Shown here in pieces: positions 1 to 5,451 of a stretch of DNA of 37,475 bases (positions are counted from its first letter, which is position 1; each line of letters begins with the position of its first letter). The notes below the pieces were generated by a model. That model had not been told where the DNA came from, made no database searches, and worked only from the letters and a program-made list of their open reading frames with translations. The translations under genes were made by a program, and so were the position numbers. Where the stretch lies: the NCBI GenBank assembly GCA_947481595.1, contig CANKHC010000006.1, positions 1 through 37,475 of the forward strand. The letters run 5' to 3'. This stretch comes from Fidelibacterota bacterium. Its GTDB lineage: Bacteria; Pseudomonadota; Alphaproteobacteria; Rhodospirillales; Rhodospirillaceae.

Positions 1-83
1 ACCGATTTACCCGATGACGTCGCAACTTCAATCTGACGCAGTAGCGTCACGATCTGCTCCGGACTGGGTCTCTTCTTTGGCAT
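1..83 (-). CDS. IS3-family transposase OrfA, N-terminal fragment (cut by window edge)
   Basis: Reading the minus strand from the ATG at 83 gives a 27-residue N-terminus starting MPKKRPSPEQIVTLLRQIE. This pattern (basic start, PEQIV.LLRQIEV..S.GKS) is characteristic of the helix-turn-helix OrfA of many IS3-family elements, which binds the terminal repeats and is usually fused to the OrfB integrase by -1 frameshifting. A strong ribosome-binding site, GGAAAGGAG, lies 6 bases upstream of the ATG on this strand. The frame is open to the window edge, so nothing can be said about intactness. The gene runs away from the truncated marR and the efflux operon. Confidence 0.75.
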   Translation of the reverse strand, partial: MPKKRPSPEQIVTLLRQIEVATSSGKS

Positions 84-129
84 GACAAAGCTCCTTTCCA
101 AGCTAGTTTCTATCAAATCGCTTGGTACA
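1..129 (-). mobile_element. IS3-family insertion sequence, end only (continues left of window)
   Basis: The minus strand carries the start of an IS3-type OrfA (83 to 1), and about 46 bases of non-coding sequence separate its start codon from a plausible element tip at 129, where the minus strand reads TGTACCAAGCG. TG...CA tips and such a short leader are usual for IS3-family elements. To the right the sequence switches directly into the middle of a MarR gene, which fixes the boundary to roughly 120-135. The other tip, OrfB and the target-site duplication lie outside the window, so the exact end and the IS group are inferred. Confidence 0.6.
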
Positions 130-130
130 A

Positions 131-340
131 AAAGAGCCGGTCAGGTCAGTGGTGCGCGGCCGATCGAAAGAAGACCGCCGCGTCGTCGAGGTCACGCTCA
201 CCCGCACTGGCCGCAAATTTTACGATCTCATCCAAGAGGCCCACGTCCAATCCGTGTCGAAGATTTTGCAGGCTCTCAGCGCCGGCGAACAGGACACATT
301 GTTGAAATTATTCCGAAAGATAACGGCGAACCTCAAATGA
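131..340 (+). pseudogene. MarR-family repressor, 5'-truncated by the insertion sequence
   Basis: The open frame encodes the C-terminal part of a MarR-type regulator: the wing motif RGRSKEDRRVVEVTLT (the family's R.s..DRR.v.v.LT signature), then G.k.y and an alpha-helical dimerisation tail ending LFRKITANLK. The N-terminal dimerisation helix and the recognition helix are absent; codons upstream of about 131 belong to the insertion sequence. No convincing start codon or ribosome-binding site remains, so this is very probably a dead gene. Its TGA overlaps the ATG of the RND adaptor (ATGA at 337-340), which shows the repressor was originally the first, translationally coupled gene of the efflux operon. 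MarR proteins in this position usually repress their own operon, so its loss would be expected to change pump expression. Confidence 0.8.
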
Positions 341-1449
341 CCGACATTTTCATGCACCCTAGCGCTCGCAAGACGTATTTCATTGGCGCAGGCGTTCTTG
401 CCCTCGTCGCCGCGCTGGTCACGACCCTGGTCTGGCAGCGCGCGCCGCAAGGCGAGGCTCCGCAGACAGCTGTGCCGGCGCTGTCGGTGACCGCCGCGAC
501 GCCGCACCGCGCCTTGTGGCCGACGACACTCGACGTCAGCGGCGCCATCGCGCCATGGCAGGAAGCGGTCATCAGCTCACAGATCGGCGGCTACCAGATC
601 AGCGAAATTCTCGTCAACGTGGGCGATCAGGTGAAGAAAGGCCAGGTGCTGGCCCGTCTCGACCAAGCCCTGCTGCGCGCCGACGAGGCCCTTCTGCTCG
701 CGAACTTCGAGCAAGCCGAAGCTAACCACAAGCGCGGGCTTGCGCTGAAGGGCAAGGGGTTCATCAGCGACCAGAACATCCTGCAGACCGAAACCCAAGT
801 GAAGACCACGCGCGCACTGCTCGACAGCAAGCGGCTTCAGATCCGCTACACCGATATCGTCGCCCCCGATGACGGTGCTGTGGCCGCGCGCGACGCGACG
901 CTCGGCAGCGTTGTCTCTACCGGGCAGGAACTCTTCAGGCTCGTGCGCCAAAATCGCCTGGAGTGGCGGGGTGAGCTTTCTGCCAAGCAGATCACGCAGG
1001 TTCTCCCCGGCCAGTCTGTACGTCTGTCCTTGCCCAATGGGGCGCAGGCCTCGGCCGTGGTCCGCCAGGCCGCGCCCACACTCGATGCCGGCTCCCGTCT
1101 CGGCACTGTCTACGCCGACCTGGAAGCCAATTCCGCGGCGCGGGCAGGGATGTATGCGAGCGGTCGGATTGCCATCGGCGAAGTGCCGGCCCTCGCCGTT
1201 CCCGCCGAGGCCGTCGTTGTCCGCGATGGCCGCAACTATGTTTTGGAGATCACCGGCACTGAGGCTGTTTCCAAGGTTGTCTTGCGCGGCGTGGAAATCG
1301 GCCGCCGCGAAGGCGAGCATGTCGAGATCTTGACCGGTCTGACCGAGTTCACGCGCTTCGCTGTGCGCGGCGCCGGCTTCCTCAACGACGGCGCCGTCGT
1401 CCGCGTGGTGAAGGAACTGCTCGGCGTCTTGCAGGGGGCTCAGCGCTGA
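337..1449 (+). CDS. RND efflux periplasmic adaptor (membrane fusion protein, HlyD/AcrA type)
   Basis: A 370-residue periplasmic adaptor that would link the inner-membrane RND pump to an outer-membrane channel. Order of parts: an N-terminal hydrophobic anchor or uncleaved signal (about residues 13-35), a biotinyl-lipoyl-like half (GGYQISEILVNVGDQVKKGQ), a helical hairpin (DQALLRADEALLLANFEQAE), the second lipoyl half (RYTDIVAPDDGAV), a beta-barrel and a C-terminal membrane-proximal domain (VVVRDGRNYVLEI...GLTEF.RFAVRGAGFLNDGA). Length is normal for the family. The frame is open back to position 82, but that extension crosses the insertion sequence and marR fragment; the ATG at 337 overlapping the marR stop is the natural coupled start. 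The pump follows after one base. No outer-membrane factor gene is present here, so a shared channel encoded elsewhere is likely. Confidence 0.9.
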   Translation: MTDIFMHPSARKTYFIGAGVLALVAALVTTLVWQRAPQGEAPQTAVPALSVTAATPHRALWPTTLDVSGAIAPWQEAVISSQIGGYQISEILVNVGDQVKKGQVLARLDQALLRADEALLLANFEQAEANHKRGLALKGKGFISDQNILQTETQVKTTRALLDSKRLQIRYTDIVAPDDGAVAARDATLGSVVSTGQELFRLVRQNRLEWRGELSAKQITQVLPGQSVRLSLPNGAQASAVVRQAAPTLDAGSRLGTVYADLEANSAARAGMYASGRIAIGEVPALAVPAEAVVVRDGRNYVLEITGTEAVSKVVLRGVEIGRREGEHVEILTGLTEFTRFAVRGAGFLNDGAVVRVVKELLGVLQGAQR

Positions 1450-1450
1450 C

Positions 1451-4400
1451 ATGACTCTCGCGACCTGGTCCATCCGCAACCCTGTTCCCACCATCCTCAT
1501 CTTTGGCCTGCTGGCGCTGGCCGGAGTTTGGGGATTTTCCCGCCTGGCTATTCAGGATCTCCCAGATTTCGACTTTCCGACCGTAACCGTCACGCTGTCC
1601 CAACCCGGTGCTGCCCCCGCACAGCTTGAAACAGAGATCGCGCGCAAGGTCGAGGATTCACTCTCAGCGCTCCCGGCCGTGAAACACCTGCGTACGACCG
1701 TAAGCAGCGGAGCGGTCTCCGTCGTCGTGGAATTTGAATTGTCCAAGGCGCTGTCGGATGCGGTCAGTGAGACCAAGAACGCCGTCGATCAGATCCGCGG
1801 CGATTTGCCCAATGATATGCAGCCGCCGATCGTCACCGCGCTTGCCATCAACGGCGAAGCCCTCATGACCTATGCGGTCGGATCGACCCGCATGGATGAA
1901 GAGGCCTTGTCTTGGTTTGTCGACGACACCCTCTCGCGTGCGGTCCTTGCCGTGCCGGGTGTCGGCCGATTCGAGCGTATCGGCGGCGTGCAGCGTGAAG
2001 TCCTTGTCGAGATCGACCCCGCGCGGCTTTCCGGCCTCGGCATCACGGCGGCCCAAGTGTCGCGGGCCTTGCGCCTGGTGCAGCAGGAATCTTCGGGCGG
2101 CCGCGGCCAGATCGGCGGCGCGGAGCAGGCGGTACGTACCATCGCCACCGTAGGACAGGCGGCAGAACTCGCGGCCCTTCCCCTGGTCCTGCCCAATGGC
2201 CGCAGCGTCCGGCTGGACGAAGTCGCCACCATTACGGATGGCTCGGGCGAGCGCATGCAGATGGCGCTCTTGGACGGCAAGCCCGTGGTCGGCTTTCGCA
2301 TCTACCGCTCGCGAGGCTTCGACGAGGTCAGTATCTCCAAAGGCGTGCAGACTGCCCTCGACGCCCTGTCGAAGACCGATCCTTCGCTCAGCGTCACGCT
2401 CATTTCCGATACCGTGCGCTACACGCTGAACCAATACGAAGGTTCAATGGACCTGCTCTACGAGGGTGCGTTTCTCGCGATCTTGGTGGTCTTCCTTTTC
2501 CTGCGCGATTGGCGCGCCACCTTGATTTCGGCGGCTGCTTTGCCGTTGTCGATCTTGCCAGCCTTCGCCGCCATTGCGTGGCTCGGCTACTCCCTCAACA
2601 CGCTCACGCTTCTCGCTCTGGCCGTCATCGTCGGCATTCTTGTCGACGACGCCATTGTCGAGATCGAGAATGTCGAGCGCCACGTTCACATGGGCAAATC
2701 GGTGGAAAAAGCCACCGAGGATGCGGTGAACGAGATCGCCCTTGCGGTGATCGCGACAACCGCCAGCCTGGTCGTGGTCTTTCTTCCCACCGCCCTGATG
2801 AGCGGCATCGCGGGGGTCCTCTTCCAGCAGTTCGGTTGGACCGTCGTCATTGCCGTGCTGGCATCGCTCTTGGTGGCGCGCCTCTTTACGCCCATGCTGG
2901 CCGCACGCTTTCTCAAGCCCAAGCCGTTCAAGAGCGAAAGCCAAGGCCCCATCATGCGGCGGTACTTGGCCGCGGTCGACTGGTGCCTCGGGCATCGCAA
3001 GACCACGATCCTTGGCGCTACGGCCTTTTTCGCTGTCTCTCTCGCGCTGCTGCCGCTGATTCCCACGGGTTTTATTCCCGCCGGGGATCAGGGCCTCACC
3101 CGCGTCAGGATCGAGCTTCCCCCCGGCAGCACCGTCGAACGCACCCTCCAGACGGCCGAGGAGGCAAGGGCCGTGCTCTCCGAGGTCCCGGGCATCCAGA
3201 GTGTCTTCACCACCGTGGGCAATGCGGGGGTCGGCACGGGATTTGGCCGCCAAGCCGGCGAAGTCCGCAAAGCGCAGCTGTTGGTCATTCTCACGCCGCG
3301 CGAAGACCGTGCCCCTCAGGCCGAAATCGAAAGTTCCGTGCGCAAGGAGCTCCTGCGCGTTGCGGGGGCGCGCTTCGACGTCGGCAACGGCGGGTCGGGC
3401 GAAAAGATGCAAGTGACCTTGGCCAGCACCGATTCCCAAGCCCTCAAATCCAGCGCGCTCGCCCTTGAACGCGAATTGCGCGCCCTGGGAACGCTTTCCA
3501 ACATCACATCGACGGCAAGCTTGGAGCGTCCCGAAATTGTTGTCCGTCCCGATCCGCAATTGGCGGCGGAACGCGGCGTCACGGCCGCAAGCATCGGCGA
3601 GGCCTTGCGCATCGCCACCGGCGGCGACTTCGATTCTCAGGTCGCCAAACTGAATTTGGACAATCGCCAGCTTTATATCCGGGTCCGCGTACCGGATGTC
3701 TCGCGCATGGACCTCGACACTTTTGCCGCCCTTCCGATTCTGGGGCGCAGCGGCCTCGTCCCGCTGGCGAGCGTCGCCAAGGTGTCGATGGAAACCGGTC
3801 CGGCACAGATCGACCGCTTCGACCGCAGCCGCTATGTCACGGTTAATGCCGATCTGGATGGAATGCCGCTCAGCACGGCCTATGCCCAGGCCATGGCGTT
3901 ACCGTCCATGAAGCTGTTGCCGTCGACGGTCAAGACCATCAGCACCGGCGATACTGAGATCTTCGAAGAGGTGCTTTCGGGCTTCACGATCGCGCTGATC
4001 ACCGGATTTATCTGCATCTTCTGCGTCATCGTGCTGCTGTTTAAGGATTTCTTACAGCCGATCACCATCCTCTCGGCGATTCCGCTGTCGGCCGGCGGGG
4101 CCTTCCTTGCGCTGCTGCTGTTCAATATCGAGCTCGGCGTGCCGGCGATGATCGGCCTCATCACCCTCATGGGCATCGTCACCAAGAACTCGATTCTGCT
4201 GGTGGATTACGCCCTCGCGAACACCCGCGAGCGTGGCATGCCAACCCGCGAAGCCGTGATCGACGCCTGCCGTAAAAGGGCGCGCCCGATCGTCATGACC
4301 ACCATCGCGATGATCGCCGGCATGATGCCCATTGCCATTGGCTTTGGTTCGGACGCCAGTTTCCGCCAACCCATGGCCGTTGCGGTCATCGGCGGGCTGA

Positions 4401-4528
4401 TCACGTCAACGGCCCTCAGTCTGCTGGTTGTTCCGGTCGTCTTTGTCTATGTGGGCCGGTTTGAAGCCTGGATCGGTCGGATCGCCAACCGCGCGGGCCT
4501 ATCCCCCCGCAAGGCCGAGGTGCTCTAG
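1451..4528 (+). CDS. RND multidrug efflux permease (HAE1/AcrB-like)
   Basis: A 1025-residue inner-membrane proton/drug antiporter of the resistance-nodulation-division superfamily, full length for the family. It starts MTLATWSIRNPVPTILIF, with the first transmembrane helix leading into the porter-domain signature of QDLPDFDFPTVTVT. The proton-relay aspartates are present as D399-D400 in VDDAIVEIENVERH (the AcrB D407/D408 site), and the matching lysine is K912 in MGIVTKNSILLVDYA (AcrB K940). Two large periplasmic loops flank the usual 12-helix plan. The ATG is one base after the adaptor stop, so the two genes are cotranscribed. Substrate cannot be read from sequence. The original local repressor has been truncated. 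Confidence 0.93.
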   Translation: MTLATWSIRNPVPTILIFGLLALAGVWGFSRLAIQDLPDFDFPTVTVTLSQPGAAPAQLETEIARKVEDSLSALPAVKHLRTTVSSGAVSVVVEFELSKALSDAVSETKNAVDQIRGDLPNDMQPPIVTALAINGEALMTYAVGSTRMDEEALSWFVDDTLSRAVLAVPGVGRFERIGGVQREVLVEIDPARLSGLGITAAQVSRALRLVQQESSGGRGQIGGAEQAVRTIATVGQAAELAALPLVLPNGRSVRLDEVATITDGSGERMQMALLDGKPVVGFRIYRSRGFDEVSISKGVQTALDALSKTDPSLSVTLISDTVRYTLNQYEGSMDLLYEGAFLAILVVFLFLRDWRATLISAAALPLSILPAFAAIAWLGYSLNTLTLLALAVIVGILVDDAIVEIENVERHVHMGKSVEKATEDAVNEIALAVIATTASLVVVFLPTALMSGIAGVLFQQFGWTVVIAVLASLLVARLFTPMLAARFLKPKPFKSESQGPIMRRYLAAVDWCLGHRKTTILGATAFFAVSLALLPLIPTGFIPAGDQGLTRVRIELPPGSTVERTLQTAEEARAVLSEVPGIQSVFTTVGNAGVGTGFGRQAGEVRKAQLLVILTPREDRAPQAEIESSVRKELLRVAGARFDVGNGGSGEKMQVTLASTDSQALKSSALALERELRALGTLSNITSTASLERPEIVVRPDPQLAAERGVTAASIGEALRIATGGDFDSQVAKLNLDNRQLYIRVRVPDVSRMDLDTFAALPILGRSGLVPLASVAKVSMETGPAQIDRFDRSRYVTVNADLDGMPLSTAYAQAMALPSMKLLPSTVKTISTGDTEIFEEVLSGFTIALITGFICIFCVIVLLFKDFLQPITILSAIPLSAGGAFLALLLFNIELGVPAMIGLITLMGIVTKNSILLVDYALANTRERGMPTREAVIDACRKRARPIVMTTIAMIAGMMPIAIGFGSDASFRQPMAVAVIGGLITSTALSLLVVPVVFVYVGRFEAWIGRIANRAGLSPRKAEVL

Positions 4529-4629: not shown

Positions 4630-5451
4630 GTGACTGAACAGCGACCTCTCGAGCTCACCTGTTATGTCCATGAGGCGTGGGCGCCGCGCATTCGCCCCGC
4701 CGGATCAAAACGCGAATGGATGGAAAAATCGCCGGAGCGCTTCGCCTACCGCTGTCTTCCGCTCGCCATTGCCAATACGCACGGCTGGGAGATCGGAAGT
4801 CCCTGCGGTTTTGAAGCCCGCTGGCGCGGCGGCCGGGGTGTCGAGGCCGTCGAAATCCGCGCCGACAAGGACACGCCGCCCCACCTGGTGCCAACCTCGC
4901 TGTTCGGCGAGGGCACCATCACCTTCCATGTCGATGGCATCTTCCGCACGTCACCCGGTTGGAATCTGTGGGTGAGTGGTGCCCCCAACGCCGCAAAGGA
5001 CGGCATCGCCCCGCTCGGCGGCGTGATCGAGACCGATTGGTCGCCCTACACCTTCACCATGAACTGGCGCTTCACCCGGGCCAATCACTGGGTCCGCTGG
5101 GAAAAAGACGAGCCGTTTTGTTTCTTCTTTCCGGTGCAGCGGGGCGTTCTCGACGTCATCCAGCCCGAAATCAAACCGCTCTCGGATGCACCCGAGTTGG
5201 AAAAGACCTTCACGGACTGGGCCCACGCCCGCAAAGCTTTCCAAGAACATGTGCGCCGTACCAACCCCACCGCGCCCACCGATCAGTGGCAAAAACTCTA
5301 TTACCGCGGCGTGTGCCCCAACGACACTCCGGGTGCCCCCGATCATCAAACCAAATTGCACCTGGCCCCGTTCAAGGCATCCGACGGCTCCGCCGCGGCC
5401 TGCCCCATGCACCCTATTCCCGGCGAAACGCCACATCCGCCCCGGGATTAG
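4630..5451 (+). CDS. DUF6065-like conserved protein
   Basis: A 273-residue soluble protein with no signal peptide or membrane segment. It looks like the DUF6065 family (YRCLPLAIANTHGWE, a tryptophan-rich middle TDWSPYTFTMNWRF, and PFCFFFPVQRG); this is recognition by pattern, not by search. No function is established for that family. Tryptophan and aromatic residues are abundant, and the C-terminal third is polar and probably helical (DWAHARKAFQEHVRR). The GTG start at 4630 lies after a weak GGGA; no better start is visible. The gene stands alone, 101 bases after the RND pump, with no obvious terminator between them, so read-through from the efflux operon is possible. Confidence 0.7.
   Translation: MTEQRPLELTCYVHEAWAPRIRPAGSKREWMEKSPERFAYRCLPLAIANTHGWEIGSPCGFEARWRGGRGVEAVEIRADKDTPPHLVPTSLFGEGTITFHVDGIFRTSPGWNLWVSGAPNAAKDGIAPLGGVIETDWSPYTFTMNWRFTRANHWVRWEKDEPFCFFFPVQRGVLDVIQPEIKPLSDAPELEKTFTDWAHARKAFQEHVRRTNPTAPTDQWQKLYYRGVCPNDTPGAPDHQTKLHLAPFKASDGSAAACPMHPIPGETPHPPRD

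Follow-up and report, generated by a model that had tools for sequence, protein, structure and literature searches.

The truncation of a marR gene by an insertion sequence (IS), immediately ahead of the genes of an RND efflux pump, is real and well supported. It is an ordinary, well-known type of mutation, and this is a new instance of it in an uncultured bacterium. The source assembly is a draft genome of 220 contigs that is 84.8% complete, and the window (the whole stretch of DNA analysed, 37,475 bases) opens contig C6 and covers its bases 1–37,475. On the sequence evidence, the arrangement is very probably explained by a recently multiplied IS3-family element that entered marR, the first gene of a marR-adaptor-permease operon, at codon 80/81, an event that would have removed both the regulator and the native control of the pump. 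In this model, the OrfA end of the IS would face the pump genes and the transposase would be transcribed away from them, so that the pump genes would be left with neither a regulator nor their native control region.

Insertion point in marR

The following features lie at the start of the window:

1–148, minus strand: IS3-family element, left end, interrupted at the contig start (eight copies with a common border; 80–83% identity to IS3-family elements of Bradyrhizobium plasmids)
3–83, minus strand: first 27 codons of the transposase gene orfA, directed away from marR (70% identity to pBBta01 OrfA)
124–148, minus strand: terminal inverted repeat region, TGACCTGACCGGCTCTTTTTGTACC, which resembles the other end of the element, TGGCCTGATGGTTTTTTTGTACC
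149–340, plus strand: 3' remnant of marR, residues 81–143 of 143 (no gaps against the four intact sister MarRs; 69% identity to that of genome G008)
337–1449, plus strand: RND periplasmic adaptor gene (TIGR01730 RND_mfp above cut-off; HlyD_D23), which overlaps the marR stop (ATGA)
1451–4528, plus strand: RND permease gene, full length (ACR_tran positions 3–1020 of 1021)

Inward from base 148, the element starts with TGACCTGACCGGCTCTTTTTGTACC and continues to the ATG of OrfA at base 83 on the minus strand. The start of OrfA encodes MPKKRPSPEQIVTLLRQIEVATSSGKS. Over 27 residues it has 70% identity to an OrfA from Bradyrhizobium plasmid pBBta01 that belongs to an IS3-family element and matches Pfam HTH_Tnp_1. 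The closest annotated DNA matches are IS3-family transposases of Bradyrhizobium plasmids, and the match stops at base 148. Both ends of the IS are related terminal inverted repeats of the TG...CA type, TGACCTGACCGG... and TGGCCTGATGG..., each leading into TTTTTGTACC. The original prediction had described an IS3-type end with OrfA directed away from marR, and both the border shared by eight copies and the Bradyrhizobium relatives agree with it. The possibility that no IS lies to the left of marR is ruled out, as an IS3-family element has its left end at window bases 1–148.

The marR remnant comprises 63 residues. Its open frame is closed on the left by an in-frame TAG at 104–106, within the IS, which rules out a complete marR with another N-terminus. 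In the intact sister MarR, the PF01047 winged-helix domain occupies residues 35–93 (58.6 bits; cut-off 24.6), and a search of the window remnant for the MarR Pfam domain gave no match. The gap-free match to residues 81–143 bears out the claim that only the wing and the C-terminal helices are kept. From the structure of MarR proteins, loss of the recognition helix should abolish regulation by the protein. Because the 63-codon remnant does not contain the DNA-recognition part, the truncated MarR is inactive. The remnant shows no sign of decay, since its 69% identity to the MarR of G008 is close to the adaptor's 68%, and no stop codon interrupts it. This undecayed state, together with the identical IS copies described below, suggests that the insertion into marR is recent.

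The marR stop codon (338–340) overlaps the adaptor ATG at 337, as had been noted from the sequence before, and this overlap is common to four sister genomes. A full-length RND_mfp adaptor is followed by an ACR_tran permease, which is the gene pair that characterizes RND pumps. Among solved structures, the best relative of the permease is MdtB. The product of the gene 3' of the permease (4630–5451) is a DUF6065 protein, full length and of unknown function.

Copies of the element in the genome

Window bases 1–148 were found again at seven other contig ends, with 99–100% identity over 48–150 overlapping bases, and all eight left-end sequences part ways directly after window base 148. The right end of the IS is present at five further contig ends, with the terminus ...GGTACAAAAAAACCATCAGGCCA, and the OrfB tail encoded there (35 residues) has 71% identity to a Bradyrhizobium protein. 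All five right-end copies contain a perfect 30-base palindrome, GCTGATGTCCCATCTAGATGGGACATCAGC, near the IS terminus in the last OrfB codons (L061:73-102). The IS exists in many nearly identical copies, and contigs therefore break inside it. This near-identity also suggests that the element multiplied recently. A PF00665 profile search detected no transposase core in the genome bin, and the right-end DNA used as a query revealed no additional contigs in the bin. An OrfB search of the genome returned the five contig ends of the marR-cutting IS, as well as matches on C65 and C114 that belong to a different element. The ends of contigs C90, C65, and C114 bear the ends of other IS3-like elements, unlike the one in marR.

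By eye, further copies of the IS seem to cut genes for a UreF-like protein (C16), a response regulator (C150), and a sensor kinase (C117). At the C16 junction, GGTCA occurs in a tandem repeat. An identical IS end is also found in the congeneric genome G015. An identical end lies on CANJBL010000025.1, from a genome placed in this genus and deposited as 'Candidatus Marinimicrobia bacterium', possibly under a wrong name.

The far side of the insertion was sought in the same bin. A query with the sister protein matched just the window remnant and weak paralogs, and the 5' half of marR was not in the bin. All matches of a Pfam MarR_2 search of the genome have open frames of at least 143 residues, with no IS-cut half gene among them. 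The matching right end of the marR copy was not found in the bin, and comparison of the eight left with the five right IS ends gave no pairing by a target-site duplication of 2–6 bases. Incomplete binning is the simplest reason for this absent pairing; adjacent deletions may also account for it. An IS-mediated deletion that took the 5' half of marR plus further DNA, in place of a simple insertion, would account both for the missing half and for the unpaired ends; it is nevertheless unlikely, given that the bin is 84.8% complete and binning may just have missed the contig in question. An assembly chimera, in which an IS end was joined to an unrelated marR fragment, is brought to mind by a junction that lies near a contig start and adjoins a multi-copy repeat. 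This is very improbable, as the IS part stops at its exact terminal base, just as in the seven other contigs and in Bradyrhizobium, and short-read assembly of true insertions yields contigs that end about 150 bases inside the repeat.

Sister loci and the native control region

An ortholog of MarR was identified in 4 of the 18 other genomes searched in the genus (G008, G004, G014, and G003). The sister protein has 143 residues, and its gene is located directly 5' of the orthologous adaptor gene in each case. The sister operons share the gene order and the ATGA overlap of the window, which upholds the view that marR was the operon's own regulator gene. They differ from the window in that marR is intact and preceded by a conserved element (divergent in G003), and the insertion site carries no IS. 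Over the part compared, identity between the window and these operons is 66–68% for the adaptor and 78–83% for the permease. The permease is closest to these marR-bearing loci, as the others reach at most 77% over the part compared. An adaptor tree, with weak support, did not resolve whether the marR-bearing loci share one clade. Several congeners have the adaptor and permease genes and no orthologous marR; the regulator is therefore dispensable and not universal in the genus, and regulation of the pump seems to vary within it. Adaptor N-termini vary among the congeneric operons that have no marR (MTNM... in several).

In G008, G004, and G014, the 27 bases directly 5' of the marR start are AAATYGAATGGTTCGGATTTCGAAGTA, which contains CGAA-TGG-TTCG; the G003 version is divergent. 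This element holds an imperfect palindrome, abuts the marR start in the sisters, and occurs once in each of these three genomes. It was not found in the window genome, allowing up to three mismatches. The palindrome is likely an operator, and the conserved element probably belongs to the control region, as operator or promoter. MarR proteins beside RND operons commonly act as repressors, and it is from this family knowledge that repression by the present MarR would be expected. As marR is the first and co-directional gene of the operon, the IS separates the native control region from the pump genes. In the light of the four sister operons, the operator and promoter that probably precede marR would now lie beyond the IS.

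Expression of the pump genes

Loss of the native control of the pump is well supported, and overexpression is no more likely than lowered or altered expression. The original prediction of changed, perhaps constitutive, pump expression is partly supported; constitutive expression is not favoured over lowered expression. The other possibility that it named, loss of the old promoter, fits the position of the IS, which divides the pump genes from the native control region; this loss is no less likely than derepression.

A polar insertion, with the operon severed from its promoter and silent or barely transcribed, would be an early step toward loss of the pump. We regard this outcome as quite possible, at somewhat below even chances. 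The conserved element found at the marR start in the sisters would be across the IS, the transposase is transcribed opposite to the pump genes, and the 30-base palindrome near the right end might hinder read-through. The adaptor and permease are undecayed, which speaks against it, although a recent insertion would show no decay yet. Their intact frames speak for derepression, in which a promoter in the IS end, formed at it, or inside the operon would drive constitutive, regulator-free expression of the pump, by analogy with IS21 in mexR. Disruption of mexR by an IS is associated with raised mexAB-oprM expression (PMC3948848). For the window this outcome is possible but rather doubtful: bases 1–500 contain no plus-strand promoter-like site by an E. 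coli-type consensus, which may miss Alphaproteobacteria-like promoters, and the insertion parts the pump from the native promoter of a co-directional, first-in-operon marR, unlike the divergent mexR. It is distinctly improbable that an unrecognised outward promoter in the IS end gives stable regulator-free expression and has been selected as a replacement for native control in the lineage.

Two known systems can be compared with the insertion in marR. The IS3-family element of pBBta01 (NC_009475.1, 105881–107084) resembles the window IS in its left end (83% identity over 124 bases) and has the same terminal base; it is a separate element of the same family, with an unlike right terminus. In Pseudomonas aeruginosa, mexR is divergent from the mexAB-oprM operon. 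An insertion of IS21 in mexR, the repressor gene of that operon, has been described with overexpression (Boutoille 2004, as cited in PMC3948848). Common to that case and the window is an IS that disrupts the gene of a MarR-family regulator next to the operon of an RND pump. The P. aeruginosa case differs in its IS family, in its divergent regulator, and in the reported overexpression, whereas marR in the window is the first gene of the same operon. Raised pump expression is therefore not automatic here. The window offers a clear example, from an uncultured lineage, of an efflux regulator knocked out in nature by an IS that was active recently, and comparison with its sisters yields a testable operator candidate. 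The window also advises caution: an efflux regulator cut by an IS need not mean overexpression of the pump, as gene order decides whether the promoter is retained.
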